This document shows, piece by piece, positions 5,394-23,797 of a stretch of 23,797 bases of DNA. Position 1 is the first letter of the stretch, and each line of letters opens with the position of its first letter. Location of the stretch: IMG/VR virus record IMGVR_UViG_3300026500_001430, positions 1 through 23,797 of that record; one strand, 5' to 3'. The position numbers and the translations under genes are program-made. Source of the stretch: a virus. The notes below the pieces were generated by a model, which had not been told where the DNA came from, did no database searches, and worked only from the letters and a program-made list of their open reading frames with translations.

Positions 5394-5812
5394 TGTCAAC
5401 CTTTAGTTTTACAATATCTGCTCCAGAGGTAAATACCTTAAAAAATACTAATGGGCTATCCGCGTTTGAAGCAACTGCTGATCGAGGAATGTCGCGTTCT
5501 TCAAAGCATCGTGTTCTTACTGCAAAGTTTGGCGATGGGTATGAGCAAAGAGTTCTTGACGGTATAAATACAAAAGACGACGCTTTCAATTTATCTTTTA
5601 ATAATCGTACTGCTGAAGATATAAATTTAATTGCTGCTTTTTTTGACAGTAAAGCCGCAAAAAACTTTGATTTTACAGTAACAGATACTTTTACTGGGGG
5701 TAATCTTTCTAATACAACAATGAAAGTTGTTTGTGATACTTATAATATAAACTATATTAGAGAAAATTTTCACTCTCTTACTTGCACACTACGAAGAGTT
5801 TATGAACCATGA
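5393..5812 (+). CDS. M: Minor tail protein M
   Basis: This 139-residue tail-tip protein carries the signature of the lambda gpM family, AKFGDGYEQRVLDGIN at residues 44-59. The family forms a ring between the tube and the tip complex. The end (LTCTLRRVYEP) also fits the family's conserved C-terminal strand. GGGAG at 5381-5385, inside the tape measure gene, lies 7 bases before the ATG, which overlaps the tape measure stop (TAATG). The stop overlaps the next start (ATGA at 5809-5812), so M and L are probably translated in a coupled way. Its length is close to that of lambda M (109 residues) plus a small extension. Confidence 0.9.
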   Translation: MSTFSFTISAPEVNTLKNTNGLSAFEATADRGMSRSSKHRVLTAKFGDGYEQRVLDGINTKDDAFNLSFNNRTAEDINLIAAFFDSKAAKNFDFTVTDTFTGGNLSNTTMKVVCDTYNINYIRENFHSLTCTLRRVYEP

Positions 5813-6828: not shown

Positions 6829-7511
6829 TAGAACAAATTAAAGAACATTTTGAAAGTGAATACCCAAAAGAAGGTTGCGGTATTATAGGAATAGTAAAAG
6901 GTAAGAAACAATGGTTTCCCTGCGAAAACATTGCTGAAAACAATGATGACTTTATTATGTCTTCAGAAGATTGGTTTAAAGTAAAAAAGCACGCAGATAT
7001 TTTAGCTATAGTTCACAATCATACAAACAATGATAATACTCCTAGTGAGAATGATATTAATAATTGTAATGCTTTAGGAATACCTTATTACATTTTTAGT
7101 TATCCAGACTTAGAATTAAATATAGTAGAGCCTAAAGAAAACTTTAACCCTTTACTTGGTAGAGAGTACTCTTTTGGAACTTCTGATTGTTTTGAAGCAA
7201 TGAGAGACTGGTTAGAAGCTGAAGGCATTAAAATACCAAAAAGAGCTGCTTTTGAAGACGACTGGTGGTTAAAAGGATTAGACTACTTTACGGAAGAAGT
7301 AGTAAAAGAATGGGGGTTCAAAAAAGTAACTTCACCCCAAAAAAACGATCTATTAGTTTTTGCAGTAGAAAGTCCCGTAGGAAACCACTGCGGAGTTTAT
7401 TTAGGAAATGATGTGTTTTTTCATCACGCAGTAAACAGATTGTCTTGCAGAGAGTCTCTATACCCTTTCTGGGCAAGACACATTATAGGAATATATCGGC
7501 ATGAATCGTAA
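6825..7511 (+). CDS. K: Tail-tip peptidase K: JAMM domain plus NlpC/P60 domain
   Basis: This 228-residue protein has the two-domain layout of lambda gpK. Residues 1-105 form a JAB1/MPN metalloprotease domain: E16 (KEGCG) and the complete zinc motif H64-x-H66-x7-S74-x2-D77 (HNHTNNDNTPSEND). Residues ~115-225 form an NlpC/P60 cysteine peptidase: C122 (TSDCFEAMRDW), H188 (NHCGVYLG) and a third polar residue at H200 or H201. Both active sites look intact. NlpC/P60 domains in tail tips cut cell-wall peptides, and the JAMM domain may act in tip maturation. The ATG overlaps the L stop by four bases (ATGA), and the C-terminus overlaps gene I by 11 bases. No strong ribosome binding site is visible, so translational coupling is likely. 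Confidence 0.94.
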   Translation: MIEQIKEHFESEYPKEGCGIIGIVKGKKQWFPCENIAENNDDFIMSSEDWFKVKKHADILAIVHNHTNNDNTPSENDINNCNALGIPYYIFSYPDLELNIVEPKENFNPLLGREYSFGTSDCFEAMRDWLEAEGIKIPKRAAFEDDWWLKGLDYFTEEVVKEWGFKKVTSPQKNDLLVFAVESPVGNHCGVYLGNDVFFHHAVNRLSCRESLYPFWARHIIGIYRHES

Positions 7512-9054
7512 AGTTTATTTAGAAGGAGAACTTGGAAATAAGTTTGGAAAAGAATTCACTATGAATGCTAAGTCTTTTTCAGATGTGTTTCGCTGCCTAG
7601 AATGTAACTACCCTGAAATTCGACAATACTTAATAGAATGTGAAGAGAATAATATAGGGTTTGTGTGTGAAGTTGCAGGAACCCCTTTAAACTCTGAGGC
7701 AGAGCTTTTACTTCAATACAATGAAGGAGATATGGTAGTTACTCCACTACCTGCAGGATCAAAAAGTGGAGGAGCCAAGATACTGGCTGCTATAGCTATA
7801 ACTATGCTTACAGCAGGTGCTGCTGCAGCTCTAATGCCTAATACAATGGCGGCAGTGGGGGCTGCAGCAACCGGAGTTCCTACATATTCAACGGGTTTTA
7901 TGAGCGCTTTTAGTAGTGGCGCAAACTTTGGAGCGGCGTTAGGGGCAGCTTCGCAAAGTCTTGCAGGATTGACAGCCCTAGGAGTGGCCGTAAACCTAGC
8001 TATGACAGGTGTAAACCAGATAATGGCACCGGATCCTAGTGTAGATAACGATCAGGATGAAAGTTATCTGTTTCAAGGAACAGGACAAACTCTTATAGAA
8101 GGAGATCCGGTACCTGTACTATACGGTCAATTAAGAGTTCCGGGAAGGCCAATTAGTACTCAAGTACGGGGCGAAAAACTAACGTTTATGGATTACGGCA
8201 TAAACCCAATTACATCAGATGACCCTAGTACTGGAGGTACTCCAGCTATTACAGGAATAACAACGCCTGCCTCTATAGCTGAAGGGTCTTCTGCTAATAT
8301 AACAGTTACCACTTCAAATATAGCTCAAGGCACTACTCTTTATTGGACTATAATTCCTAAGTCAGACGGGTTAGATATAGAAAATGATTTTGTAGAGAAT
8401 ACGGACTCTTTTACTGTTTCTAGTAATAATAATGGATCTTTTTCTATACGGCCTGCGTCAGATACCTTATCAGAAACTACAGAGTCTTTTGCTTTAGAAG
8501 TATTCGGTGGGGGAACAGGCACGCCTAAGGAATCTGCTACTATAAATATTATAGATTCTACTACAGGAGGAAGTACTCCCGACCCTGATAAAGAAATTTC
8601 TTCAATATCCAGTAATGTTACAAATGTAGATGAGGGTAGCCTTGTAACATTTACAATTACTACTTCAGGACTATCGGACGGTACTCGACTAAATTACTAT
8701 GTTAGTCAAGCTGCTACTTATGGAGAAGTTTCTTCAGACTTTAGTGCGTATAGAGGCGAAGTAGCAATAGGAAATAACATAGGTTATGTATTTATTACTC
8801 CAGACGCAGATTTAACGACAGAAGGCTCTGAGCAATTTAAGTTGATAGTAGAGGGGGAAGATGTAGAGTCTAAAGTGTCTTCGTTAATTACTGTTAATGA
8901 CACCTCTCTTACTCCATCAGAAACCCCCGATACCCCCGAAAGTGACCCAGATGGAGAGCAAGATGACGATAGAGCAGACCAAGAAGAGCAGGCGCCTTCG
9001 CCTGGAGGCGGTAGGCTCCCAAGCCCAACCCCGGATCCTCCCAGCCCACACTAA
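7501..9054 (+). CDS. I: Tail assembly protein I fused to two Calx-beta repeats
   Basis: Residues 1-~225 match the lambda gpI type: a ubiquitin-like N-terminus (KVYLEGELGNKFGKEF), the phrase YNEGDMVVTPLPAGSKSGG, an Ala/Gly-rich hydrophobic stretch (~93-175), then QGTGQTLIEGDPVPVLYGQ. In lambda I acts with K and J in building the tip. Lambda I is 223 residues; here there are 517. The extension holds two Calx-beta-like repeats, ~250-353 (SIAEGSSANITVTTS, DTLSETTESFALEVF) and ~366-467 (VDEGSLVTFTITTSG, TTEGSEQFKLIV). A Pro/Asp/Glu/Gly-rich, probably disordered tail (~470-517) follows. Calx-beta domains often bind calcium or mediate adhesion, so this protein may display extra surface at the tip. 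The gene overlaps K by 11 bases; 29 bases separate it from J. Confidence 0.86.
   Translation: MNRKVYLEGELGNKFGKEFTMNAKSFSDVFRCLECNYPEIRQYLIECEENNIGFVCEVAGTPLNSEAELLLQYNEGDMVVTPLPAGSKSGGAKILAAIAITMLTAGAAAALMPNTMAAVGAAATGVPTYSTGFMSAFSSGANFGAALGAASQSLAGLTALGVAVNLAMTGVNQIMAPDPSVDNDQDESYLFQGTGQTLIEGDPVPVLYGQLRVPGRPISTQVRGEKLTFMDYGINPITSDDPSTGGTPAITGITTPASIAEGSSANITVTTSNIAQGTTLYWTIIPKSDGLDIENDFVENTDSFTVSSNNNGSFSIRPASDTLSETTESFALEVFGGGTGTPKESATINIIDSTTGGSTPDPDKEISSISSNVTNVDEGSLVTFTITTSGLSDGTRLNYYVSQAATYGEVSSDFSAYRGEVAIGNNIGYVFITPDADLTTEGSEQFKLIVEGEDVESKVSSLITVNDTSLTPSETPDTPESDPDGEQDDDRADQEEQAPSPGGGRLPSPTPDPPSPH
8248..8901 (+). repeat. Two tandem Calx-beta-like coding repeats in gene I
   Basis: The two copies lie at about 8248-8559 and 8596-8901 and encode ~100 residues each. 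Each opens with (S/V)xEGSxxxxTxTTS, continues through a G-T-x-L-x-Y/W step, and closes with D-x-x-x-x-T-E-x-x-E-x-F. They are separated by a short Ser/Thr/Gly/Asp linker. Copies have clearly diverged in DNA and protein, so the duplication is old or both came in together. Confidence 0.72.
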
Positions 9055-9083: not shown

Positions 9084-12000
9084 ATGGCTAAGACAGGCTT
9101 TATTGCCCAAAATGTAAATGTAGTAGATGTTATTTCCGAAGGCCCTATACACGGTTTAGTCGGAGGGCTCTCAGGTGTCTATTTAGATGATGTACCTGTA
9201 GAAGAAGCACGTTTTAGTGCTACTACAGGTTCTCAAGAGGATAACGCTCCTGTAACCGCAACAATAACTTTCGATGGTAGTTATACAGGTACTGTTTCAG
9301 AGAACGTTGATTTATCTGGGGCAGAAGTAGGAAATATTTCAAGTATAACTTTGTTTGACTATTATACTACCGAAGTAACCCTTACAAATATTTCAGAAGT
9401 AGATGAAACTACTACAGCAACAATAAGCACTGCTCCACGATCTGTTTGGACAGACGATTGGGAGTCGGGCCCTAAAGGTCAAGGGGCGGGCATAAACCAA
9501 GCGTTTTTACTTAAAGACGATGTTTTTGTATTAGGAAGCTTTTCTATAGCAAATGGAAAAACTGGCAATTTTATTGTTATATCTGATTATGTTTTAGAAG
9601 AGGGAGAAACTTATACTTTAGTTATATGGCAGACTAGAACAATAACTTCTATTGATGGAAATTCAAATACAATACTACTACGAAGCGGATACCAAGGCAG
9701 CGGTATTCCTCCAAGGTCTGGTACTTATAATTTTATATTAAATGGTTCCGTGCTCTATGATGAGGAGGGTTCTACTGTTAATTTATACAGTAACGTTAAA
9801 AAAATTGATAAACTAAACGTTGATTTTCGTAGAGGTGAAATCAATCAGCTGCCTGTATCCTCTGTAGGAGGAGTAGGGGGATCTGTAGGAGTAAACGGAA
9901 ATACACAACTTATTAATGGCCCTTCTGAGTTAAAAATGATAGATGAGGCTTTGGCTTCAAATTTAGGATTTACTTTATTCGACATTGATGCACTTCCTAA
10001 TACAGATCCGGATAGTAAAGCCTACCCAGGTAATCCAGATAAAAGCACTCTAGCTACTACTGCTACCCTTCTTCCTGCGGCTTCTTTTGGGCTAGATACA
10101 GGTGCAAAGATTAGAGAAGTAGACGAGATTATATTTTCTATTAAGTATAATGCACTACAAACTTTAAATTTGAACGGAGGAGATAAGGAAACTGCTTATG
10201 CCTTTTATCAAATGCATATACGATTTGAGCAAAACAATGCTTTTGGGCCTTGGTATAAGCTTTTTGGTAATTCTGATAGTCTAATTCGTCACCGAGGAAA
10301 TACTAGTGCTTCCGTAGAGTTTGATCATGTTGTAAATGTAGACGCGTATAGAAAAACTGTAGGTCAATTTACAGATTTTCAAGTTAGAATATGCAGAGTT
10401 ACCCGACACATAGGAATGGGAGTTACTAGTACGGGAAGCAAACTAAGTAAGCATACTGATAAGAAAAAATGGCAGGTTCAAGCATCTGCATCAGTTTCTA
10501 GAATGAGTGCTACAATTAAAGATTATTTTAATTATCCTTATAGCTCTCTAGCTTCTTTAAGTTTTTCTTCTCGACAGTTTGATGGAATCCCAAAAAGAAG
10601 CTATTTACTTAAAGGTAAATTAGTAAAAGTTCCTACTACATACATCCCTCGGGAGTACTCTAATACAGGAATTGCAAAGTATCAAGGATTTTGGGACGGA
10701 AACTTTAGAACAACTCCTATGTACACAGATAATCCTGCTTGGGTTTTTTATGACATAGTAACAAATAATCGTTACGGAGCCGGTAAATGGATTAAAGAAG
10801 AAGATATAGATAAATACGCTTTGTATAGAATTGCAAGATATTGTGATGAACTTGTAGAAGATGGCAGTGAGTATACTTCTTCTACTCCGTTAAAAATTGG
10901 AGAGTTCTACAAAATCAAAGTAACGGGTTCTATGAACTGGAGCTCTGTAGGTGCATCTAGTAATGCTGTAGGCACTATTTTTCAAGCTACAAGCCCTACC
11001 CTTACTACTGTCCATGCCAAAGCATGTAGAGTTGAGCCTCGGTTTCGTGCGAATATATTCTTAACAAAAGCTACTGAAGCGTATAAAGTATTAAAAGACT
11101 TTGCCACTGTATTTTTAGGAATTCTGTACGCACAAGATAGTAAAATTACTGCTGTACAAGATGCTCCACAAGACCCTGTTTATAGCTTTACTAAAGGTAA
11201 TGTTCTTGATGGAGCTTTTACCTACGAGTCTACTGGTGCGAGAACTCGAACTAATCAATGTGTAGTTACATGGAATGACCCTACAATTAATTATGAGCCC
11301 GTGCCTTTAGTAGTTGAAGACAGAGAAAGCATTGTTAGAACGGGTAGAATTATCTCAGAAAATGTAGTAGCTTTTGGAGCGACTTCAGAAAGTCAAGCAA
11401 TACGCTATGGTAAGTGGAAGCTTTGGACTGCTCAAAATCAAACTGAAATAGTGTCTTTCAAAACTTCTCTTGCTGCCTATTACATTAAGCCTGGAGATGT
11501 TATTAATGTTCAAGATGCGGATAGATTTGGGGTATCTTACAGCGGCCGCACGTCTTCTGCAACTTCAACCACTCTTACATTTGATAGAAACGTTTCTTTT
11601 AACTCTGGCTCTGTGTATGAGTTGAGTACTCTTGTAACAGCAGCTGCAGCTTTAAATAGCTCTAGCTCTAGTGTAACTATTAACGACACAAACGGAAACG
11701 GAACTACTTACGCTCAAGGAGAGAAAATTGACTACGCATGGGTATATTCTGATACAGATACCCCTGCTGATGGAAGTAGAGATACTTATGTTTACACAGC
11801 TTTAGATACAGAAGAAAAAGCTTCCAATGCTTTTTTAGACTCTAACGGCTCAGAACTTATTCCTACTATTTGGAAGCCTTATTCTTACGTAGAAACACAC
11901 GTTATAACAAACCCTGGAAATACTTCAAACAGCGTAACTCTTGCTAACTCCGCCACTTTTGATACTACGCCTTCAAAGCATAATATTTGGACATTAAAAG

Positions 12001-15000
12001 AGACTTCTGGAGGTGTAAACACTGCTGCCTCTAAAAGGCTATACAAAATTTTAAGTATATCCGAGGAATCTCCTAATACTTTTGGCGTTTCCGCAGTAGA
12101 ATACTTTGATGAAAAATTTCTTGCTATAGATGGCGACTACGAGCTAGGAACAATACCCTCTTCTGTTTATTTACAAAACGAGCCCGTAGATCTACCTAGG
12201 CCTATAAACCCTAGAATTGTACTTGCGTCGGACAGATCAAAGCCTGGAGAAGAGTTATTACTTGAGTGGGAAAACCCGGGGTCTGAGGCAATTGTATCTT
12301 ATGAAGTAATTCATAATATTGAAACAATAGACTCCCCTATATTATCAGATGATACGCATATAACTTTAGATAATCTTCCTAATGGACATATTTTATTCAG
12401 AATAAGAGCAATTTCTAGAAATGGAAATAAGTCTTCTCCTACTACTCTTAGTTATGATGTCTACGATGTCTATGACGAAAATGTTCCTCGCATGCAACAA
12501 GGAATAGCTAAAGGAGCAGTCGCCACCGCGCAAGGAAAAATAAATAGTAGTAATCAGTTTGAGTTTCAAGCAACAAATACAAGCGTAGCTTCTGTAACGA
12601 ATCCCTTTATAACTTATACAATTACAGGAGCAAAAAATGTAGCAAATATCTCTACGGAAGATATTTATTATATGTATTTAGACACTGCGGTCCCTTCTTT
12701 AAAACTATTAGAGTTTGACACTACTGCGTTAAATAACTTACAGTTTTATAGAGATGTAGGAAGTGGAAACGCGGCTATTTCTACTGCGTGGACTTCTCTG
12801 GGGACTATTTCCATTGCTGAAGGATCTAATGAAGTTACCGGAAGTGGGTTTAATAATAGTGTTGAGCTGAGAGACGTTCTCAATTTGTCAAGTTCTGCTT
12901 CCCCCTCTAATGGAGACGGGGCTAGAGTAGTATCTGTTATATCTGATACACGGTTACTTATTGATCGTACCTTTGATACTGCAAAATCTAATATTACAGG
13001 GTATCGAGCCGCTTTTCGACCCGACTACGCAAATGATTGTATTTTTGCTGAAATTACAAAGAGCGGAAGTACAATTTCAACAAATAACTTTATTACTCTT
13101 CGCACTCTATCAGACGATACCGAAGGCACTATTGAAACACAAGACGACGGTACAATTGCAGTAAGAGACGGCGGTATTAGTGTAGATAAAATTGCAGCAA
13201 ACTCAATCACAGCAGACAAAATTTCTGCAAACTCAATTAACGCAGATAAAATTGCGGCAAACTCTATTACAACAGAAACACTTGCAGCGAATAGTATTAC
13301 TGCAAACAACATAGCGGCAAATAGTATTACAACAGAAGAACTTGCAGCTAACTCAGTAAATGCCAATACTATTGCTGCAAACAGTATCAACTCAGACATG
13401 ATTACTGCCAACTCTGTAGTTTCTTCATTAATTACAGCGTCTACTATTCAGTCTTCCCATATTAAAGCAAATAGTATTGTATCAACAATTATTGATGCAA
13501 CAACTATTAATGCTTCGGATATTACTACAAGCACACTATCTGCTCTTACAGCAAATATGGGCGACATTACAGCAGGTACGTTAAAAGGCGGTACTATTCC
13601 AGACGCTAATGCTTCTCCTTCAGGAACTGAAAGCGGTGCCTTCATGGATCTTACTGGCGGTAAAATGGTGTTCGGTAATGCGAGTAAGCACGTTTTATTC
13701 GACGGATCAGACCTTATATTATCAGGTGTAACTATTGATGCAAACTCAATTGTTAACGCAACTGCAGCGGCGGATATTGAAGTAAAAGAAGACGGTACTA
13801 GCGAAGGTACAGGAATTGCTTCTTTTAACTTTACTACAGGCTTAAATCTTTCTGTAAATGGAACAGAAGCAACAATATCAGCAGATAGTAGTGCTCTTGA
13901 CCACGATAGCTTAATAGGTTTTGTAGCTAATGAACACATTGATCACAGCGGAGTAACTCTTACTGCAGGCAACGGTCTTACTGGAGGCGGGGACATTACT
14001 GCTTCAAGATCTTTTGCAGTAGGTGCAGGAACTGGTATTAGTGTAGCAGCGAATAGTATTAGTACAAATGATAGTGCTATTGTTCACGACAACCTTTCTG
14101 GTTTTGTAGCTAATGAGCACATTGACCATAGTACTATATCTCTGACAGCAGGGGACGGCCTTACTGGGGGCGGAGATATAACTGGAGACAGAAGTTTTGC
14201 GGTAGACGCTACAGTTGTGCGTACTTCAGCTGCTCAAACTATTGCTGGAGTAAAAACTTTCTCTAACGGAATAGTAGCTTCCGGAGGAATTTCAGGGCTT
14301 ACACTTACGAGCGGCATTTCTGGAAGTAATTATAATATTACTGGAGTTAATGAGTTACAAATAAATGATCCTGGAGAGGGGATTAAATTTACTGCAGGCA
14401 GTAGCGGCAACATGGTTCTTGCAATTGTAGATGATGCAAGTGATAATATACTTCGCTACAGCGGCACTAATGCAGTATTTGATGTTCAAGGTAATATAAC
14501 TTTGAGCGGTACAGTAGACGGCCGTGATCTTGCAGCAGATGGGGGCAGGCTTGATGGTATGGCTGACAATGCAAATAACTACTCATTACCTACTGCTACT
14601 GCTTCTGCTCTTGGGGGTGTTAAGATTGGCTCTGGAATTAATATTAATTCGGGAGTTATCTCTGCGGTTACTCAATCTGACGAAAACTTTACTACAAACT
14701 TAAAGGATAAGCTAGTAGCTGTAGATGACAATGCAAATAATTATACACTACCTACTGCGTCGTCTTCTGTTCTCGGAGGAGTCAAGATAGGCGCAGGTAT
14801 CAACATAGACGTTAACGGAGCAATTACAGCAAGCACTCAGTCACAAGAAAACTTTACTACAAACTTAAAAGATAAGCTAGTAGCTATAGATGACAATGCA
14901 AATAATTATAGTCTTCCAGCAGCAACCTCTACTGTACTAGGAGGAGTAAAAGATGGTGCTCGAGTTACGATTGACGTAAATGGAGTACTTTCTGCAGATG

Positions 15001-18000
15001 TACAAACTGCAAACGACTTTACTAATGCATTAAAGGATAAATTAGTCGATATAGAGGAAGATGCAAATAATTACTCACTTCCTACCGCAAGTACTACAGT
15101 ACTTGGCGGAGTAAAAATAGGTTCAGGAATTAGCATCTCTTCAGGCGCTATTTCTGCAGACACTCAATCAGATGAAAACTTTACTTCTGATTTAAAATCT
15201 AGGTTAGAGGGTATAGAATTAAATGCTACTGCTGACCAATCAGCTTCTGAAATTCGTACTCTGTTAGGCACGGCCACAAGCAGTACTAGCGGCCTTGTAA
15301 AAATTGGATATACTGAAAACAATAAAAACTATCCTGTAGAGCTTTCAAGCGGGCAGATGTTTGTAAATGTTCCTTGGACCGATAATAATACTACGTATAC
15401 CGCAGGGTCTGGGCTTTCTTTATCGGGGTCTAATCAGTTCTCTGTGGATAGCACTGTAGTTCGTACAAGCGGTGCTCAGACAATTGCAGGAAATAAAACG
15501 TTCTCAAATAATGTTACTGTTACTGGTAACTTTACCGTAAATGGCACTACTACTACAATTAATACAGCTACTTTAACAGTTGAAGATAACATAATTGTTG
15601 TAAATAGTGGTCAAACAGGAACTCCGGCTACAACCGTAACGGCCGGTTTAGAGGTAGAAAGAGGAGACTCTGACAATGTAAGATTAGTATATGCAGAAAC
15701 AGGTCTTGGGCCAAGTAGCAATCTAGCGGGTTGGAACTTTGGGAACACAAATGTAACTGCAGACACTTTTTATGGTGACTTTATAGGAGATATTGTAGGC
15801 TCTCCTTCTAGTTTTGGAACTCTAACAACTGATGACCTAACAGAAGGCGATAATAATCTTTATTACTTAGACTCTCGTGTTCGAGCAGCAATTTCAGGAG
15901 CTTCTGGTGGAGGTATTAGCTTTAGTTCAAGTAATGGTGAAATAGCTGTAGATAGTACTGTGGTTCGTACAAGTGGTACTCAGACAATTGGAGGAGCAAA
16001 GACCCTTACTTCAAATCTAACAGTAGGCACAACTACTGATAGCACTTATATTTTATTCCCAGATAAAAATGTACTAGACAATCCAACAGCAGTAGGAGAT
16101 AAACGAAAACTTATCGCTATGGGCAATAGCGGGAACGGCGGTTTGTGGCAAACTACTGGACGCGGAGGCTTGATGCTTGCTTCCGCAGATGATTCTTTAA
16201 TTCTTGCTTCTGGAGATGTAGGTAGAAGTTATGATCCTGATGCGGGAGGCTATCACCCGAACGCAGATAATGAGGATATTTACCTCTTAACTGATGGTAG
16301 TGTAAGATTTATGACAAATCTGCAAACTGCGTCTAATTATAAGCAGTTTATCTTTGATAGCTCCGGCAATGCGACTATACCTAATAATATTGTTGTCGGA
16401 GGTACAGTAGACGGCCGCGATCTTGCAGCAGATGGAAGTAGACTTGATGGTATGGCTGACAATGCAACAAATACAGCCGCTCCTGCAATTACAACTGATG
16501 GAAGCACTCCTTCTCTCGCAAGTGGAATTACTGCGGCAGAAGTACGAACTGCTATAGGAGCAGGCACATCAAGTCTTACTCTTGGTACTACGTCTACAAC
16601 TGCACTTCGTGGTGATACTGCTATTCCTACAGTGTATAATCCAGCTATTACTTTGAGCGCTGGAAACTCCGGTATCACAATGGATAGCGATAACTCCTTT
16701 ACTCTTAACCAGTCAGGGGCCGAAACTATTACAATTAGTCACGCAGATACTTCTTCGCAAGAATCTGTAGATAATAGTAATGGTACTGTAATTCAAGATA
16801 TTACTCTTGATACTTTTGGCCACATTACTGGAATAAACAGTGTAAGCTTAGATGGCCGTTATTTTACTGAAACCGAATCAGATGCTCGATATTTAAGAAA
16901 GGATTCTTACAACAGTAACTGGACTCGACTTGGATACGGCACAAGTGGTGTAGCCTACTGGCATAAATTAGCAAGAGTTACAATTAATGGTGCTTATAAA
17001 GACTATCAGCTACGTTGTGACTGGACGGATCGTTATAATCATGGTACTTTAAACATTCATATACACTCAGATAACGATAGTACTGCAGATGTTTGGGATG
17101 CTTACATACAACAGTTTGGAGAAACAAACCAAAAGCCACTTAGTGACTTTAAATATTATAAGTCTGGCTCGATTGTAGACGTTTGGATTCGTACCGCAGG
17201 ATGGAAAGAGTGGGATTACATTCGCACTGATGCCGTAACAGAAGGCACACCTACTATTGTTTGGTATAAAGAAGGAGACTCGGGCGCGGGTAAAACTACA
17301 ACGGAACCTTCTGGATTAACACAGTTTTCTGACTATACTCCTTGGCACCCAAATAATGATGGCGCGTCCTCTGGGTTAAATGCAGATACTCTTCATGGCG
17401 CGGCTCCCTCAATGGATGCAGGGAATAGCACTATTGTTCAACGAAATGCAAACGGTTACGTTTTTGCAAACTACTTTAATACTACGGCTAACGATGTTAG
17501 TAGTGGTGTGACAAAAATAATGGTTGAAACCGGAAACGATAATTATATTCGTCACGGAGACGCTAGCGCTGTACGAGGCTTTATAAATGTATCTAATGGC
17601 GCAGATGTTACCCCTTCTTGGGTTCCTTCTAGTAACCCAAGCTATGTATCAAGCTTAGGTGATTTAAGCATTACTTCTACAGCCACAGAAATTAATAAAC
17701 TCGATGGATTTACAGGAGTAACAGCAGATTTAAATTACGCAAAAGATTTACGGGCTACCGGAGTTACTTCAACTGAGTTTGATTACTTAGATGGTGTTTC
17801 AGACAATATTCAAACTCAGTTAAACGGTAAACAGGCTTCAGGTAGTTACATAACAAGTCTAGGTGACTTAAATATTACGTCGACAGCTACAGAAATTAAT
17901 AAGCTGGATGGGTTCACAGGAGTAACAGCAGATCTAAACTATGCAAAAGATCTGCGAGCGACTGGAGTTACTTCAACTGAGTTTGACTACTTAGACGGGG

Positions 18001-19532
18001 TAACAAGCAGTATTCAAACCCAGCTGAACGGTAAGCAAGCTTCTCTCGGGTTTACTCCCTATAACTCCACCAATCCCTCTGGATTTATCACAAACTCTAC
18101 TGCTTCTTTAGCAGCTTCAAAAATTACTAGTGGTACTTTTAACATAGCTCGTATACCTAGCCTTTCTAGCAGACACCCCGACCTTATAAACACACAAGAC
18201 GATATTACTTCTCGAACTGAATCAGGATTTTATCAAACCAGCAGCGCAACCACGGGAGAAGGATGGCCAGAAACTAGTAATAGTTACTACCATATGTTAA
18301 GTAATACGCATAGTAATACTGATAATTACTATGCGATGCAGCTTGCGGCGGATTACTATCAACAGCAGTTCTGGTTTAGATCTACAAACGGAAGTGGAAC
18401 TACAGGGTGGAATCAGGTATTTCATGATGCTTATCACCCAAATGCGGACAAGTGGACCACACCAAGAACACTTACATTAACAGGCGCAGTTACGGGTTCT
18501 GTAAATTGGGACGGGTCTGGAAATGCTAGTCTTGCAACTACTGCTACTTCTGACCCTACCCTAACTCTTACCGGAGATGCTTCAGGATCTGCTACTTTCA
18601 CTAACTTAGGAAATGCAAGTTTATCAGTAACAGTAGCGAATGACAGTCACAACCATACAAAATTATTTGAGAATTCAACAATAACTTTTGGAGCTAGTCA
18701 GCTACAGTGGATGGATCAGAACGGTGCTGGAGGTAACGGCTTAAATGGAAACGCGCCACGAAATCCCACAACTGGCTGGTACCACAACCTAATAATGAAC
18801 CACGCAAACAGTAGTGGATATTACTCTCAGATTTCCACAGGACTGAATAGTAGTGATATTTACTTTAGTAGAGTTCAAGGGGGTGCCGCACAAGACTGGC
18901 AAAGAATATTTGCAGATGATTATCATCCAAATGCCGATACACTAACAACTGCTAGAAATATTGGAGTTACTCTTTCCGGGGACGTTACAGGAACAGGATC
19001 TGCCAGCTTTAACGGCTCTGCAGCTATTGATATTGCTATTACTACAACCGGCGGAGGCGGTGTCACAGGAGTTACTGCAGGCACTGGCTTATCAGGAGGA
19101 GGTTCAGGAGCTGTTAGTTTAGCTGTAGATTTAGATGAGCTAAATACAGCAACGACAGCACTTACTACAGATTTTATACCTATTGTTAAAGCAGCTACTG
19201 GTATTAGTAAGAAAATATTATTCAGTGAAGTTATTGACGACCTTGACCTTGTAACAGGAAATGTAACAGGTACTCTGTTCGCAGAAGTTATTCAAGTAAA
19301 CACATTAAATGCAAACAGAATTACCGCCAATACCATTACAGCGGCACAAATTCAAGCAGATGCAATTACAGCAAACGAAATTAATGCAGGAGCAATTACA
19401 GCAGAACAGCTACAAATCTCAAACAATAGCTCTGGTAGTGCTGGTATTTTTATGGACTATAATAGTGGAAACTCAAGAATTGACATACGAGACTCCAGTG
19501 CTCTACGAGTTAGAATTGGATACCTGGCATAA
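9084..19532 (+). CDS. J: Giant gpJ-type tail tip attachment protein and central fibre
   Basis: This 3482-residue protein is about three times lambda J (1132). The N-terminus (VDVISEGPIHGLVGGL, ~13-30) is typical of gpJ. Residues ~470-850 hold the tip hub core (YLLKGKLVKVPTTYIP, PAWVFYDIVTNNRYGAG), interrupted at ~598-648 by a small extra module. A fibronectin-III-like domain lies at ~1039-1130. Twelve xxIxANSIxx decapeptides occupy 1368-1487. Then come fibre repeats of several families (1606-2350), a mixed beta domain (~2608-2742), two 68-residue EINKLDG repeats (~2857-2990) and two pyocin-knob-like modules (~3048-3122, ~3230-3285). Three more decapeptides (3411-3440) and a gpJ-style end (RIDIRDSSALRVRIGYLA) follow. 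GAGAG at 9071-9075 precedes the ATG by 8 bases. It forms the central fibre and probably binds the first receptor. The reading frame is unbroken. Confidence 0.95.
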   Translation: MAKTGFIAQNVNVVDVISEGPIHGLVGGLSGVYLDDVPVEEARFSATTGSQEDNAPVTATITFDGSYTGTVSENVDLSGAEVGNISSITLFDYYTTEVTLTNISEVDETTTATISTAPRSVWTDDWESGPKGQGAGINQAFLLKDDVFVLGSFSIANGKTGNFIVISDYVLEEGETYTLVIWQTRTITSIDGNSNTILLRSGYQGSGIPPRSGTYNFILNGSVLYDEEGSTVNLYSNVKKIDKLNVDFRRGEINQLPVSSVGGVGGSVGVNGNTQLINGPSELKMIDEALASNLGFTLFDIDALPNTDPDSKAYPGNPDKSTLATTATLLPAASFGLDTGAKIREVDEIIFSIKYNALQTLNLNGGDKETAYAFYQMHIRFEQNNAFGPWYKLFGNSDSLIRHRGNTSASVEFDHVVNVDAYRKTVGQFTDFQVRICRVTRHIGMGVTSTGSKLSKHTDKKKWQVQASASVSRMSATIKDYFNYPYSSLASLSFSSRQFDGIPKRSYLLKGKLVKVPTTYIPREYSNTGIAKYQGFWDGNFRTTPMYTDNPAWVFYDIVTNNRYGAGKWIKEEDIDKYALYRIARYCDELVEDGSEYTSSTPLKIGEFYKIKVTGSMNWSSVGASSNAVGTIFQATSPTLTTVHAKACRVEPRFRANIFLTKATEAYKVLKDFATVFLGILYAQDSKITAVQDAPQDPVYSFTKGNVLDGAFTYESTGARTRTNQCVVTWNDPTINYEPVPLVVEDRESIVRTGRIISENVVAFGATSESQAIRYGKWKLWTAQNQTEIVSFKTSLAAYYIKPGDVINVQDADRFGVSYSGRTSSATSTTLTFDRNVSFNSGSVYELSTLVTAAAALNSSSSSVTINDTNGNGTTYAQGEKIDYAWVYSDTDTPADGSRDTYVYTALDTEEKASNAFLDSNGSELIPTIWKPYSYVETHVITNPGNTSNSVTLANSATFDTTPSKHNIWTLKETSGGVNTAASKRLYKILSISEESPNTFGVSAVEYFDEKFLAIDGDYELGTIPSSVYLQNEPVDLPRPINPRIVLASDRSKPGEELLLEWENPGSEAIVSYEVIHNIETIDSPILSDDTHITLDNLPNGHILFRIRAISRNGNKSSPTTLSYDVYDVYDENVPRMQQGIAKGAVATAQGKINSSNQFEFQATNTSVASVTNPFITYTITGAKNVANISTEDIYYMYLDTAVPSLKLLEFDTTALNNLQFYRDVGSGNAAISTAWTSLGTISIAEGSNEVTGSGFNNSVELRDVLNLSSSASPSNGDGARVVSVISDTRLLIDRTFDTAKSNITGYRAAFRPDYANDCIFAEITKSGSTISTNNFITLRTLSDDTEGTIETQDDGTIAVRDGGISVDKIAANSITADKISANSINADKIAANSITTETLAANSITANNIAANSITTEELAANSVNANTIAANSINSDMITANSVVSSLITASTIQSSHIKANSIVSTIIDATTINASDITTSTLSALTANMGDITAGTLKGGTIPDANASPSGTESGAFMDLTGGKMVFGNASKHVLFDGSDLILSGVTIDANSIVNATAAADIEVKEDGTSEGTGIASFNFTTGLNLSVNGTEATISADSSALDHDSLIGFVANEHIDHSGVTLTAGNGLTGGGDITASRSFAVGAGTGISVAANSISTNDSAIVHDNLSGFVANEHIDHSTISLTAGDGLTGGGDITGDRSFAVDATVVRTSAAQTIAGVKTFSNGIVASGGISGLTLTSGISGSNYNITGVNELQINDPGEGIKFTAGSSGNMVLAIVDDASDNILRYSGTNAVFDVQGNITLSGTVDGRDLAADGGRLDGMADNANNYSLPTATASALGGVKIGSGININSGVISAVTQSDENFTTNLKDKLVAVDDNANNYTLPTASSSVLGGVKIGAGINIDVNGAITASTQSQENFTTNLKDKLVAIDDNANNYSLPAATSTVLGGVKDGARVTIDVNGVLSADVQTANDFTNALKDKLVDIEEDANNYSLPTASTTVLGGVKIGSGISISSGAISADTQSDENFTSDLKSRLEGIELNATADQSASEIRTLLGTATSSTSGLVKIGYTENNKNYPVELSSGQMFVNVPWTDNNTTYTAGSGLSLSGSNQFSVDSTVVRTSGAQTIAGNKTFSNNVTVTGNFTVNGTTTTINTATLTVEDNIIVVNSGQTGTPATTVTAGLEVERGDSDNVRLVYAETGLGPSSNLAGWNFGNTNVTADTFYGDFIGDIVGSPSSFGTLTTDDLTEGDNNLYYLDSRVRAAISGASGGGISFSSSNGEIAVDSTVVRTSGTQTIGGAKTLTSNLTVGTTTDSTYILFPDKNVLDNPTAVGDKRKLIAMGNSGNGGLWQTTGRGGLMLASADDSLILASGDVGRSYDPDAGGYHPNADNEDIYLLTDGSVRFMTNLQTASNYKQFIFDSSGNATIPNNIVVGGTVDGRDLAADGSRLDGMADNATNTAAPAITTDGSTPSLASGITAAEVRTAIGAGTSSLTLGTTSTTALRGDTAIPTVYNPAITLSAGNSGITMDSDNSFTLNQSGAETITISHADTSSQESVDNSNGTVIQDITLDTFGHITGINSVSLDGRYFTETESDARYLRKDSYNSNWTRLGYGTSGVAYWHKLARVTINGAYKDYQLRCDWTDRYNHGTLNIHIHSDNDSTADVWDAYIQQFGETNQKPLSDFKYYKSGSIVDVWIRTAGWKEWDYIRTDAVTEGTPTIVWYKEGDSGAGKTTTEPSGLTQFSDYTPWHPNNDGASSGLNADTLHGAAPSMDAGNSTIVQRNANGYVFANYFNTTANDVSSGVTKIMVETGNDNYIRHGDASAVRGFINVSNGADVTPSWVPSSNPSYVSSLGDLSITSTATEINKLDGFTGVTADLNYAKDLRATGVTSTEFDYLDGVSDNIQTQLNGKQASGSYITSLGDLNITSTATEINKLDGFTGVTADLNYAKDLRATGVTSTEFDYLDGVTSSIQTQLNGKQASLGFTPYNSTNPSGFITNSTASLAASKITSGTFNIARIPSLSSRHPDLINTQDDITSRTESGFYQTSSATTGEGWPETSNSYYHMLSNTHSNTDNYYAMQLAADYYQQQFWFRSTNGSGTTGWNQVFHDAYHPNADKWTTPRTLTLTGAVTGSVNWDGSGNASLATTATSDPTLTLTGDASGSATFTNLGNASLSVTVANDSHNHTKLFENSTITFGASQLQWMDQNGAGGNGLNGNAPRNPTTGWYHNLIMNHANSSGYYSQISTGLNSSDIYFSRVQGGAAQDWQRIFADDYHPNADTLTTARNIGVTLSGDVTGTGSASFNGSAAIDIAITTTGGGGVTGVTAGTGLSGGGSGAVSLAVDLDELNTATTALTTDFIPIVKAATGISKKILFSEVIDDLDLVTGNVTGTLFAEVIQVNTLNANRITANTITAAQIQADAITANEINAGAITAEQLQISNNSSGSAGIFMDYNSGNSRIDIRDSSALRVRIGYLA
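10875..11028 (+). other. Small inserted module in the gpJ hub domain
   Basis: Residues ~598-648 (from TPLKIGEFYKIKVTGS through NWSSVGASSNAVGTIFQAT to HAKACRV) interrupt the hub core between YALYRIARYCDELVEDG and EPRFRANIFLTKATEAYKVL, which run on continuously in ordinary gpJ proteins. The pattern (GxxYxIxxxGxxxWxxxGAxxxxxGxxFxAT) is a short beta module seen in many phage structural proteins. Function unknown; identification is by pattern. Confidence 0.6.
13185..13544 (+). repeat. Twelve tandem decapeptide repeats (30-bp period) in gpJ
   Basis: Twelve in-phase 10-residue units run DKIAANSITA, DKISANSINA, DKIAANSITT, ETLAANSITA, NNIAANSITT, EELAANSVNA and on to SDITTSTLSA. The core is xxIxANSIxx, decaying toward the 3' end. 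The regular Ile spacing suggests a narrow trimeric beta shaft. Codons differ between units, so the DNA repeat is much weaker than the protein repeat. Confidence 0.93.
13899..14210 (+). repeat. Two 61-residue fibre repeats in gpJ
   Basis: Units beginning at 13899 and 14082 (183-bp period) share GFVANEHIDHS and LTAGxGLTGGGDIT, ending in RSFAV. The HIDHS and LTGGGDIT phrases are common in phage fibre shafts. The second unit runs into a VVRTS-AQTIAG module, which recurs at about 15444 and 15948. Confidence 0.88.
14514..16476 (+). repeat. Dispersed VDGRDLAADG modules in gpJ
   Basis: Two near-identical stretches, at 14514-14576 and 16407-16470, encode VDGRDLAADGxRLDGMADNA. They lie on either side of the ~54-residue repeat block and of two VVRTS modules (15444, 15948). 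The pattern suggests that the shaft grew by copying larger cassettes and not only by tandem slippage. Confidence 0.8.
14568..15224 (+). repeat. Four ~54-residue fibre repeats in gpJ
   Basis: Copies start at 14568, 14730, 14895 and 15060 (periods 162, 165 and 165 bp). Each encodes NANNYSLPTA-type, VLGGVKIGSGI-type and NFTTNLKDKLVAI-type segments. The last copy passes into ELNATADQSASEIRTLLG, a common fibre junction. Confidence 0.92.
17652..18047 (+). repeat. Two tandem 68-residue EINKLDG repeats in gpJ
   Basis: Units start at 17652 and 17856 (204-bp period). Over the 63 residues from SLGDL to NGKQAS only four differ, yet about 26 of the 59 shared residues use different codons. The block holds the common fibre phrases STATEINKLDG and STEFDYLDGV. 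Confidence 0.94.
18225..18939 (+). other. Two pyocin-knob-like modules near the gpJ C-terminus
   Basis: Residues ~3048-3122 and ~3230-3285 share YYHMLSNTHSN / WYHNLIMNHAN, then aromatic strands, then W(N/Q)xxFxDxYHPNAD. Each is followed by TTxRxxxxTLSGxVTG-type sequence. This is the usual layout of knob modules on fibre proteins, which can contact the cell surface. The family name is inferred from the pattern; binding is not shown. Confidence 0.6.
19314..19415 (+). repeat. C-terminal decapeptide repeats in gpJ
   Basis: NRITANTITA, AQIQADAITA and NEINAGAITA are three further in-phase 10-residue units followed by a partial EQLQIS unit. They resemble the 13185-13544 array, although some 5.8 kb of fibre lies between. 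Confidence 0.85.
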
Positions 19533-19601: not shown

Positions 19602-19943
19602 ATGGCAGCGGCAACATATAATCTAGTTATTGACCAAGGATCAGACTTTGTCATAGACTTAGTCGTAAAGCAATCCGGTTCAATTAAAGACCTCACTAAC
19701 TATTCAGCGAGAGCACAGTTGCGCACTAAAAAAGATGCTTCTGGAGACGCTGCTGCCAGCTTTACTTGTACAATACCTGATGCTACAGGTGGAGTAATAA
19801 AAATAGAGCTTCCTAACTCCGCTTCTTCCGGTATTTCTGCAGGACGATATTACTATGATTTAGAAATATTTACTACTGGAAATGGTACTGTTAAACGCCT
19901 ACTACAGGGAGAGGTTACACTTAACCAAGAAGTAACACGATAA
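19602..19943 (+). CDS. Small Ig-like / BppU-N-like virion protein
   Basis: This 113-residue protein is mostly beta strands. The pattern (YNLVIDQGSDFVIDLVV, LTNYSARAQLRTKKDAS, SAGRYYYDLEIFTTGNG, LLQGEVTLNQEVTR) is that of a small protein family found beside fibre genes in many tailed phages. It resembles the N-terminal adaptor domain of lactococcal phage BppU. It may attach fibres to the tip or decorate the virion; that role is inferred. It is the first gene after the 19554 promoter, with AGGAG 7 bases before the ATG. Its TAA overlaps the next start (TAATG at 19941-19945). Confidence 0.75.
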   Translation: MAAATYNLVIDQGSDFVIDLVVKQSGSIKDLTNYSARAQLRTKKDASGDAAASFTCTIPDATGGVIKIELPNSASSGISAGRYYYDLEIFTTGNGTVKRLLQGEVTLNQEVTR

Positions 19944-20353
19944 TGTCAGTTTCCGGAGTAACAATAGATATTTCTGAAGATGTAACAGAGGTTTCTGTTA
20001 CTGAGAGTGGAAAAGTTCAAGTCTCAATAACTGAAGACGTTAATACTATAGAAATAAATAATTTAGCGATTCCTTCCGTAACAAGTACGGCTTCGGGAAT
20101 TGCTTTTGTACCTCACGGTACAGTAACTGCAAATAACTTGCAAGATGCCCTTGAGCAACTTGCAGACCAAGACTTTCGTTCCGATGACGCACCAACTGGC
20201 TCAAATGTAGAAGAAGGAGACACTTGGTATGACACAAATGATAATCAACTAAAAGTATACCGCGAAACTAGCGAAGGAAACTTTGAGTTTGTACCTATAA
20301 TGATAGGAGACGACTCACCAGATTCAGATACGCTAGATGCAGGAGCCTTTTAA
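19943..20353 (+). CDS. Small fibre-associated structural protein
   Basis: This 136-residue protein is acidic and probably part of the fibre assembly. Residues 1-45 are short Val/Ile/Thr beta repeats (VTIDISEDVTEVSVTE). The middle (GTVTANNLQDALEQLADQDF) is a helical phrase common in fibre proteins, where it often forms a trimeric coiled coil. The C-terminal part (EEGDTWYDTNDNQLKVYRE) is a small beta motif common in phage fibre and head-fibre proteins. No catalytic motif is seen. Its start overlaps the stop of the preceding gene, and 20 bases separate it from the next fibre gene, so the three are probably co-expressed. The exact role is not known. Confidence 0.7.
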   Translation: MSVSGVTIDISEDVTEVSVTESGKVQVSITEDVNTIEINNLAIPSVTSTASGIAFVPHGTVTANNLQDALEQLADQDFRSDDAPTGSNVEEGDTWYDTNDNQLKVYRETSEGNFEFVPIMIGDDSPDSDTLDAGAF

Positions 20354-20373
20354 AGGCAAATCGGAGTTTTTAA

Positions 20374-21837
20374 ATGGCTCAAACAATTAAGATCAAACGC
20401 AGTACCAGCACGGCGGCACCCAGCTCACTACAGCAGGGTGAATTAGCGTATTCACAAAGTAGTAAAAAGCTCTTTATTGGTCAGCCTGGTGGCGGAACTG
20501 GCGATATTCTTGTTATTGGAGGTCAATATCATACTGATATTATTGATGACCTAGTAACAACGAACGCACTTGCAATTACAGGTGACGTAGCAGGTACAGG
20601 TAGCTATAACTCAGGTACTGGTGTTTGGACAGTCAACGTTGCTCAACAAAATAACAGTGTCGATTTAGGTACTCATACTGTAGGTAATTATGTTGCTACG
20701 TTACAGGGAACTGCAGGTCAAATTGCAACTACAGGTGCTGCTACCGGCGAAGGTATCGGGCATATAATTAGCCTCATAGATACTTCTGTAACTGCAGGCT
20801 CCTATGGCGGAACAACTTCAATTCCGACATTTACAGTAGACGCAAAAGGACGATTAACAGCTGCAAGCGAAGTCACAATCGCAACAACTCTCAATATTAC
20901 AGGCGATAGTGGTTCTGATGGTGTAGCACTTCTTTCTGAAACTCTTAACTTTGAAGGAGGTACTGCTCTTACTACTACTGTTACTGACGACAATGTAAAA
21001 ATTGATCTTGACAACACGGCAGTTACTGCTGGACAGTACGGTTCTGCTACTCAACTCGCTCAATTTACAGTAGACGCACAAGGTCGTTTAACTCAAGCAG
21101 CAGAATTTACAGCAGACTTTGTTATTACTGGTGATACGGGTTCGGATACTGTTGTATTACAAGAAACTCTTCACTTTGATGGTGGCACAGGCGTAACTAC
21201 AGCAGTTAGTAACAATCAGGTAGCTTTCTCTATCGGTCAGGATGTTGCTACAACTTCGAATGTAACGTTTAACAATGTTAGTGTAAATGGTACTCTTACT
21301 TCTGACGATATTACTTCAACAAATATTTCGGTTGACGGTAATGCAACAATTACCGGAAACCTTACAGTAAACGGTACAACTACTACTGTTAATTCAGAAA
21401 CTGTTACTCTTGACGATCCTCTTCTTACTCTGGGAGGGGACACAGCTCCAACAACTGATGACGACCTCGATCGCGGTGTGGAGTTCCGTTGGCACAATGG
21501 TACTGCTGCTAAGCTTGGCTTCTTTGGTTATGATGACAGTGCTCAACAGTTTACATTTATTCCTGACGCAACAAATACTTCAAATGTGATTTCAGGTACA
21601 GCAGGTGCGGCAAAGTTTGGCTCACTTGCTCTCGATACAGATCTCGCAGTCGCACATGGCGGTACAGGCAGAGGAACCTTTACTTCAAAAGGTATCATTT
21701 ATGGAAACGGTACCGGAGGCCTTCTTGCCACTGCTGTAGGAGCTTATGATTCCAGCAACAGTGTAGGACAACTTCTTTCAGTTGATTCGAATGGCACTCC
21801 TGCTTGGACAAACACACTCGACGGCGGATCATTCTAA
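20374..21837 (+). CDS. Tail fibre protein with Mtd-N-like adaptor
   Basis: This 487-residue fibre starts with an adaptor-like N-terminus, QTIKIKRSTSTAAPSSL then GELAYSQSSKKLFIG (~3-37), resembling Mtd N-terminal domains that anchor fibres to the virion. Two 78-residue repeats follow (~139-216, ~217-289; FTVDAKGRLTAASE / FTVDAQGRLTQAAE). Then comes a TVNGTTTTVNSETVTLDD module (~329-345) that is also present in gpJ, and an aromatic patch, VEFRWHNGTAAKLGFFGYDD. The end (AHGGTGRGTFTSKGIIYGNG, then TPAWTNTLDGGSF) is a usual fibre terminus. No C-terminal chaperone peptidase is visible. CGGAG at 20362-20366 precedes the ATG by 7 bases. It is a plausible receptor-binding fibre or a proximal segment that carries the next protein. 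Confidence 0.85.
   Translation: MAQTIKIKRSTSTAAPSSLQQGELAYSQSSKKLFIGQPGGGTGDILVIGGQYHTDIIDDLVTTNALAITGDVAGTGSYNSGTGVWTVNVAQQNNSVDLGTHTVGNYVATLQGTAGQIATTGAATGEGIGHIISLIDTSVTAGSYGGTTSIPTFTVDAKGRLTAASEVTIATTLNITGDSGSDGVALLSETLNFEGGTALTTTVTDDNVKIDLDNTAVTAGQYGSATQLAQFTVDAQGRLTQAAEFTADFVITGDTGSDTVVLQETLHFDGGTGVTTAVSNNQVAFSIGQDVATTSNVTFNNVSVNGTLTSDDITSTNISVDGNATITGNLTVNGTTTTVNSETVTLDDPLLTLGGDTAPTTDDDLDRGVEFRWHNGTAAKLGFFGYDDSAQQFTFIPDATNTSNVISGTAGAAKFGSLALDTDLAVAHGGTGRGTFTSKGIIYGNGTGGLLATAVGAYDSSNSVGQLLSVDSNGTPAWTNTLDGGSF
20788..21240 (+). repeat. Two 78-residue repeats in the 20374 fibre
   Basis: Units begin at 20788 and 21022 (234-bp period). Each runs VTAG(S/Q)YG, FTVDA(K/Q)GRLT, ITGD(S/T)GSD, ETL(N/H)F(E/D)GGT. 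Such units are typical of phage fibre shafts. Confidence 0.88.
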
Positions 21838-21884
21838 AAAATACTCACCTCTCGCGTAAATACGCATAGTTATGGAGGAGCCAC

Positions 21885-23797
21885 ATGGCGCAAACGATTA
21901 AACTCAAGCGTTCTGGAACTCAGAACGCTGTCCCTAGCACGTCTCAACTCGCACTTGGCGAGGTAGCTCTTAACACTTATGATGGCAAAATGTACATCAA
22001 GAAAAGTGTGGGCGGTACAGAATCCATTGTAGAAATTGGAGGAGACGCAACTTCTAGTTCAGGACTTGATTTCACCGGAAACTTAAATCTGGCGGATAAC
22101 GTGCGCATCGTAATTGGAGACGGAAATGATCTTCAAATCTACCATGATGGCTCTGATAGTTATATTCTAGAAAATGGTACAGGAGACTTATTTTTAGGAG
22201 CAACTAATCTAAGACTAACTAATGGAAATGCTAGTTCTACATATTTGCAAGGTATAGATGGTGGTGCAGTTGATATTCGTCATAATAATTCTGTAAAACT
22301 CGCCACAACTTCTTCTGGTATTTCTGTAACAGGCGATATTACTTTAACAGGAAATGTATTTACTGACGAAGGGTTTTACGGAAATAGAGTATGGAACGAA
22401 GATAATAGTGCCTTACGATTTGCTACTAATAATACTGAACGTATGCGTATTGATGCAAACGGTCGCCTTCTTGTAAATACTACTTCTTCGATTGATAATT
22501 TTGCAAAAATACAAGTTGTGGGCGATAGTAGTTCTTTAGCTAGAATTACTCTGAAAGATGTAGATGGAACAAATCAATATACCTACTTTGAGCAATCTGG
22601 CGGCGGCACTCGAATCAATACTCAAAACGGCACTGCCAATGGTTTTTTTACCATTGGAGCGTGGAATGGTACAGCGAGTAGCGACTTTCTTCGTGTTACA
22701 GCAGAGGGTCGCGTAGGTATTGGTACTACATCTCCTGCCGGCAATCTTCATATTAAGTCTCTTAATAATGTAGGAGATGCTACACTAATTATTGAAGCCG
22801 ATGCTGATAATAATTTCGAAAACGACAATCCAAGAATCGAATTAAGACAAGATAATAATTTAGTCGGTGGGTACATATACCTAGAGGGTAATGCTGCAAC
22901 AACTGCAGTCAATACTATAGCAAATTCGTTAATTTTAGATGCAAAGGCATCTAGCACTGCAGGATCGCATTCAATACAATTTGCTACTGGAGGACTAGCT
23001 CCTAATCAAAGTGGGGGACCCACAAACAGTTCAGTACGAATGACCATTACAGACGATGGTAAAGTTGGTATCGGCACAACTTCTCCCGGTAGAAAATTAA
23101 CTATACAAGGAGGTTCTGGAGATAACTTACCTGTAAGAATTATTGGCGGCGCAAATACGACGCATGGATCTATTGAGTTTCAAGACCCTACTACAACAGC
23201 AGATTATAAAGTTACATTAGGATCTAAGGGAGATGACCTATACTTTCAAGCCGGTGGCGGTGAGAAGGCGCGCATCGACTCGAGCGGTAATTTGCTGGTT
23301 GGTACTACTACTGCTGACGCAGAGGGTATAACTCTAAGAGGTGACAGTCATTACTTAAAAGTAGTACGTAATGGAGCAATTACAGCTTATTTTGATAGAA
23401 AAACTTCAGATGGCGATATTGTACAGTTCCGCAAAGGTGGCTCCTCAGTCGGTAGTATTGGTAGTAATCTCGGTCGTTTTTACATTCATAACAATTACGG
23501 CTCTGGCTCTGGATTCCGATTTGATAACGCGGCAATTAGACCTTCTGATAGTTCCGGTGCTAGTGAAGATGCCACTACAGATTTAGGCGCTTCAGCCGCA
23601 CGCTTCAAAGACCTTTACCTGTCTGGTCAAGTTAGCACAAGCAAACTTGCAGTTGAAGACGGGACAGTTGGTGCGCCGTCAATTACTTTTCAAAATGATA
23701 CGAATACGGGCATCTATAGATCAAGTTCAGACCAGCTGAGAATTGCAACTGGAGGAGCTTGGAGCGCTTACTTCGAACAAAGCGGAATTCATTCCTC
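21885..23797 (+). CDS. Large tail fibre protein, C-terminus beyond the window
   Basis: Translating from ATG 21885 gives 637 codons with no stop before the window ends. GGAGGAG at 21874-21880 is a strong ribosome binding site. The N-terminus (MAQTIKLKRSGTQNAVPSTS, then ALGEVALNTYDGKMYIKK) parallels that of the preceding fibre, so both probably use the same attachment point. Shaft modules follow: IYHDGSDSYI near 86-95, GRVGIGTTSP near 273, GKVGIGTTSP near 392, GNLLVGTTTADAEG near 468, TTDLGASAARFKDLYLSG near 563-580 and NTGIYRSSSDQLRIATGG near 607. Fibres of this make often end in an S74-type self-cleaving chaperone, which would lie past the window. No repeat pair suitable for a diversity-generating retroelement is seen here. 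Confidence 0.9.
   Translation, partial: MAQTIKLKRSGTQNAVPSTSQLALGEVALNTYDGKMYIKKSVGGTESIVEIGGDATSSSGLDFTGNLNLADNVRIVIGDGNDLQIYHDGSDSYILENGTGDLFLGATNLRLTNGNASSTYLQGIDGGAVDIRHNNSVKLATTSSGISVTGDITLTGNVFTDEGFYGNRVWNEDNSALRFATNNTERMRIDANGRLLVNTTSSIDNFAKIQVVGDSSSLARITLKDVDGTNQYTYFEQSGGGTRINTQNGTANGFFTIGAWNGTASSDFLRVTAEGRVGIGTTSPAGNLHIKSLNNVGDATLIIEADADNNFENDNPRIELRQDNNLVGGYIYLEGNAATTAVNTIANSLILDAKASSTAGSHSIQFATGGLAPNQSGGPTNSSVRMTITDDGKVGIGTTSPGRKLTIQGGSGDNLPVRIIGGANTTHGSIEFQDPTTTADYKVTLGSKGDDLYFQAGGGEKARIDSSGNLLVGTTTADAEGITLRGDSHYLKVVRNGAITAYFDRKTSDGDIVQFRKGGSSVGSIGSNLGRFYIHNNYGSGSGFRFDNAAIRPSDSSGASEDATTDLGASAARFKDLYLSGQVSTSKLAVEDGTVGAPSITFQNDTNTGIYRSSSDQLRIATGGAWSAYFEQSGIHS

Follow-up and report, generated by a model that had tools for sequence, protein, structure and literature searches.

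The J gene and its setting

The window, by which we mean the whole 23,797-nucleotide stretch analysed here, is a 23.8-kb virus record with a siphophage tail module, in which a T5-type tail tube protein, the tape measure and lambda-type M, L, K and I genes precede J. Immediately upstream of J, at 5393–9054, PF05939, PF05100, JAB/NlpC and phrog_32 matches follow one another in the order of lambda-type gpM-L-K-I. The major tail protein (91–1233) is of the T5 tail-tube type (about 31% identity and 97% coverage to T5-group phages) and, because it stands with lambda-type tail-tip genes, the tail module is itself mosaic. The gpI-type gene (7501–9054) encodes 517 aa, with the phrog_32 match confined to the first 224 residues and about 290 extra residues at the C terminus. 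Downstream of J lie small genes of fibre-associated type and a further two fibre genes. The genes of this region (19602–23797) look like those that accompany fibres in marine T4-like cyanophages and pelagiphages (phrog_1084, phrog_697), even though this phage appears to be a siphophage. On the basis of this resemblance to cyanophage and pelagiphage genes, we infer that the virus is apparently aquatic.

An open-reading-frame check of the window gave J as one unbroken frame of 3482 residues. Residue positions are counted from the Met; the stop-to-stop lengths used for relatives begin four residues earlier. Its parts and internal features, all on the plus strand, are as follows.

9084–19532, +: J, central tail fibre or tail-tip protein, 3482 aa (phrog_31 central tail fiber J, E 5e-103)
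9084–13175, +: hub part, residues 1–1364, comprising lambda-gpJ-like hub, FNIII region and linker (domain and profile matches)
~11067–11525, +: PF13550 in the hub (E 1.8e-18)
13014–13055, +: FRPDYANDCIFAEI, the motif at the hub end; in split relatives the hub gene stops after it
13176–13544, +: decapeptide array 1, residues 1365–1487, DNA period 30; crossover joint where hub meets shaft
13545–13889, +: conserved block after array 1 ('knob'), residues 1488–1602; four beta strands predicted for its core, where pLDDT is about 90
13890–19298, +: variable mosaic shaft, residues 1603–3405 (similarity and conservation profile)
14549–15226, +: direct repeats of about 165 nt in the shaft, PF11133 head-fibre type
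15360–16433, +: shaft block common to the window and locus L006, 91% identical in nucleotides (hubs about 70%)
17640–18043, +: 204-nt direct duplication in the shaft (ATEINKLDG units)
18390–18530, +: PF03903 T4 gp36-like stretch in the shaft (E 1.5e-11)
19299–19412, +: decapeptide array 2, residues ~3406–3443, DNA period 15; joint between shaft and tip in relatives
19413–19529, +: tip, residues ~3444–3482, ending in ..GIFMDYNSGNSRIDIRDSSALRVRIGYLA, an ordinary gpJ-type C terminus

A megablast search of J against isolate phages gave no match. The hub profile A1 matches both lambda gpJ (8iyk, E 5e-80) and the F2-pyocin fibre (25vf, E 3e-87), and in hub homology, gene position and C-terminal type J agrees with a gpJ central tail fibre. 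It is probably the protein with which an uncultivated virus of bacteria recognises its host at the tail tip.

Both decapeptide arrays described in a first-pass annotation of this DNA were recovered with TRF and a repeat finder. Array 1 holds 22 motif matches against 0.66 expected in shuffles (maximum 6), and array 2, which precedes the RVRIGYLA end (..LRVRIGYLA), holds 6 against 0.16 (maximum 4). At DNA level the two arrays of the window have no exact match of ≥12 nt in common, and recombination between them was rejected on this ground. The start of array 1 (13161–13364) has a decapeptide pattern in common with PDB 9eg4 chain H (orf16; E 0.0022), which is a possible structural guide to the array. 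No account of tail-fibre decapeptide repeats was found among the papers available for searching.

Array 1 leads into LTANMGDITAGTLKGG (residues 1488–1503), which had been read as the usual lead-in to a gpJ C terminus; it is present directly behind the array, but it opens a conserved block of 115 residues that in the J family is invariably followed by fibre. Searched against 50,697 isolate phage records, the block gave only two matches, both weak, and a search of isolate phages with the tip found none. The last 40 residues of the tip are 85–95% identical among relatives, and the RV[RK][LI]GxL ending is also found on ordinary J proteins, namely L121 (Pandoraea), L143 (Thorsellia) and L171 (Aggregatibacter). 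Structure models of block and tip are weak (pLDDT 64 and 72), and a Foldseek search with them returned nothing below E 0.2. The idea that block and tip are an internal duplication (GAFMD/GIFMD, similar predicted strand patterns) was rejected, with a profile comparison probability of 4.5%.

Between the arrays lies mosaic fibre, as had been proposed: the shaft contains PF11133 head-fibre repeats, PF18338 BppL_N and PF03903 T4 gp36, and resembles Vibrio KVP40-type distal long-tail-fibre subunits, with the PF03903 and KVP40-type matches falling within the shaft only. It sits within J, not in a stand-alone gene with a tail-attachment N terminus of its own. At E≤1e-8, shaft modules were found neither in the non-J genes of J-centred loci nor in the downstream fibre genes of the window; distant fibre genes share such modules, and the nearest copies are in other J genes.

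Conserved ends and a variable middle

About 190 loci, many of them truncated contigs, were gathered by searches that used the hub, the tip and profile alignments as queries. Relative to the window, conservation is kept to about residue 1600, collapses and resumes at about 3407, so that the 5′ edge of the variable part lies about 110 residues past array 1 and its 3′ edge is array 2; the boundary at residue 1490 originally assigned to the variable material is thereby displaced. Where complete J proteins agree in hub, block and tip type, their stop-to-stop lengths are 1991 (L031 group), 2199 (L024), 2644 (L034), 3409 (L014) and 3486 residues (the window), and the four other than the window all carry a shaft. 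Further fused relatives (L016, L019, L070, L085 and others) are without array 1 and the block and end in RVxLGxL-type tips.

The first-pass annotation had taken J for an ordinary short protein (hub, array, block and tip) into which a long side-fibre was inserted between block and tip via the decapeptides. Both ends of J are indeed recognisable gpJ material, distant ordinary J proteins finish directly in the same kind of tip, and other phages have side-fibre and long-tail-fibre proteins similar to the shaft modules. However, the shorter forms that exist among the complete relatives include none without a shaft; the variable part begins well downstream of array 1; the two arrays lack DNA homology; and it is other J genes that hold the nearest copies of the shaft modules. 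GC3 is also uniform, staying at 0.23–0.27 throughout the supposed insert, and a foreign insert with a compositional signature was rejected for this reason. We consider insertion unlikely. Recombination at the decapeptides, the other half of the original proposal, is supported as exchange: breakpoints do lie there, as nucleotide-level switches, trees and identity correlations show.

A different concern is that J past about residue 2402 could belong to another phage, mis-joined during assembly within a shared shaft module. L002 and L003 (100% identical), the sole other contigs of this phage that enter the shaft, stop at residues 2402 and 2342, in the very block that is 91% identical in L006, and the sequence of J beyond residue 2402 rests on one assembly. 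Against such a chimera, the frame stays open through to the conserved tip, the downstream genes are the same as in L014, L024, L061 and L063, and the relatives share the overall plan; we regard it as improbable. The breaks in these two contigs both fall within window positions 15360–16433, and shared shaft modules are a likely general cause of fragmented assembly.

Exchange at the two repeat arrays

The clearest switch at array 1 is between L009 and L063, in which amino-acid and nucleotide identities rise from 51% and 54% at the hub end to 91% and 89% in the array, 96% and 91% in the block and 99% and 92% in the next 100 shaft residues. The switch point lies in the first repeat codons of array 1, beyond which the two sequences are almost identical for more than 80 nt. 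Comparison of the window with L066 gives the same rise, from 58% and 61% at the hub end to 86% and 79% in the array and 86% and 82% in the block, followed by a fall to 33% and 49% in the shaft. The nearest hub relative of the window, L004 (83%), has a block only 64% identical to that of the window, as compared with 82–83% for the blocks of L006, L066 and L067. Shaft blocks are also shared independently, as in the 1075 nt over which the window and L006 are 91% identical.

These individual cases are matched by the histories of hub and block as a whole. AU tests reject the hub topology for the block and the block topology for the hub (p < 1e-5). Across 14 J proteins, whose pairs are not mutually independent, the Mantel rho of pairwise identity is 0.82–0.89 for neighbouring hub segments and −0.01 for the hub end against the block. 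Mean block identity across clades (0.76) is as high as that within the clade of the window (0.73). When the two block/array types are placed on the hub tree, they change 5 times, a minimum taken from one tree, as compared with a mean of 5.3 for shuffled labels, and so behave like the shuffled labels.

At array 2, L034 and L063 are 93–94% identical in nucleotides up to the array and about 50% identical after it. What follows the switch is a tip of one of three kinds, RVRIGYLA in L024 and L034 and a further kind each in L061 and L063.

On the evidence of the sequences, J is a three-part adhesin whose shaft and tip reassort among hub lineages at the repeat joints. A crossover at array 1 replaces shaft and tip together on a resident hub, whereas one at array 2 replaces the tip alone; a recombination enzyme would presumably carry out both. 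What the arrays contribute to the choice of site may be passive. Array types that have not been exchanged share a median longest exact DNA match of 12 nt, against 10 nt for hub segments; exact matching between unlike arrays goes no further than between hub segments, and the joints may therefore be places where crossovers are tolerated rather than favoured. A stronger version, in which both coding repeat arrays are kept as joints dedicated to recombination and shaft and tip are separately tradable cassettes for a pool of hub lineages, seems to us unlikely; if true, it would amount to a built-in means of reshuffling host recognition that needs neither a dedicated recombinase nor a retroelement.

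Split relatives and known tail-fibre systems

In several more distant relatives, with about 40–54% hub-core identity, hub and fibre are separate genes. These split hub genes stop at or just after the FRPD..DAIxA motif, some 20–40 residues or more short of where array 1 would lie. The separate fibre gene follows directly and is translationally coupled: in nearly all split forms the stop overlaps or nearly adjoins the next start, mostly as TAATG. Split forms occur in several hub clades and are intermixed with fused forms on the hub tree, where supported branches force at least 4 changes, and in L028–L030 a gpJ-type ending is carried by the separate fibre gene.

In the L071–L080 group the boundary between hub and fibre is earlier still, apparently inside an FNIII-like domain. 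The gene after the hub continues the FNIII-looking domain cut by the hub stop at L071:5957, L073:9782, L074:12229 and L078:9030 and in L075, L079 and L080, and a TTTGATTAATGTCAGAAGAAATTACATTTAAAGT stop–start overlap is conserved in two subclades of the group. A domain divided in this way, with a conserved overlap, points to coupled translation or to a product made by frameshifting.

From such forms it can be argued that hub and fibre were once separate coupled genes, like T5 pb3 and pb4, and were fused in some lineages at the linker just before array 1, or that a fused gene was split in others. In favour of this are the recurrence across hub clades of hub stops, mostly TAATG, shortly before the array 1 position, the interleaving of the two forms on the tree and the gpJ-type ending on a separate gene. 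Distant ordinary J proteins are fused, however, which makes the polarity ambiguous, and fusion or fission accounts for the boundary but not for the repeated exchange among fused forms or for the switches at array 2. As the origin of the hub/fibre boundary it is compatible with reassortment of the distal parts, and we hold it as a tentative, somewhat doubtful possibility.

T5 provides the model for the split arrangement, as its pb3 hub and pb4 straight fibre are separate proteins (PMC10038345), in contrast to the single polypeptide of the window. The five best Foldseek matches of the block model, all non-significant, are T5/DT57C straight-fibre or tail-tip chains (E 0.2–0.8); the tip profile matches pb4 weakly and below significance (E 0.53), and a profile search with the block against pb4 gave no match. 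Lambda gpJ, of 1132 residues, comprises two FNIII domains, a helical shaft, a beta prism and an RBD (PDB 8iyk, PMC11101478). The J of the window resembles it in its hub domains, by a strong profile match, and in gene order, FNIII region and C-terminal distal fibre, and shares RVRxG-type endings with its ordinary J relatives, but is about 2,000 residues longer, including the mosaic shaft between two decapeptide arrays.

Trading of distal adhesin parts at conserved joints on a conserved anchor has precedents. In T-even phages, conserved motifs are the sites of the recombination that exchanges distal tail fibres (Tetart et al. 1998, as related in PMC10408124), and modular RBPs are known in Klebsiella phages and coliphages (PMC8262889, PMC10408124). 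As in the T-even model, the crossovers described here sit in short conserved joints; the joints differ in being coding decapeptide arrays within J that flank the shaft on both sides. The fibres of marine phage metaviromic islands likewise have a conserved N terminus, family-specific repeats and a hypervariable distal part and come from uncultivated marine phages (PMC3909814). That work measured read recruitment of T7-like fibres and is not known to have mapped crossover points in a gpJ. Adhesin exchange at this locus is a variant within the known modularity of tail fibres.

Collectively, these observations make it probable that J is a gpJ-type central fibre in which the hub closes the tail, the shaft and tip meet the host, and the arrays are linkers at which phages trade the distal parts. 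By analogy with lambda and T5, the fibre would be trimeric, with the hub closing the tail tube and the long variable shaft and small C-terminal tip placed distally; the two arrays may act as flexible or oligomerising linkers. In the same two phages lie the grounds for supposing that the distal parts bind the receptor and that a change in host range would be the selective reason for the exchange.

The architecture of J, its conserved ends around a variable middle, the sharp switches in DNA and the unlinked histories of hub and block reveal the sites and the units of central adhesin exchange in an uncultivated siphophage lineage. The exact joints are provided for testing whether repeats promote adhesin exchange. 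Metagenomic contigs of such phages will tend to break or be mis-joined by assembly in the shared shaft modules. Because the histories of hub and distal fibre are unlinked, prediction of the host from the hub alone would fail.
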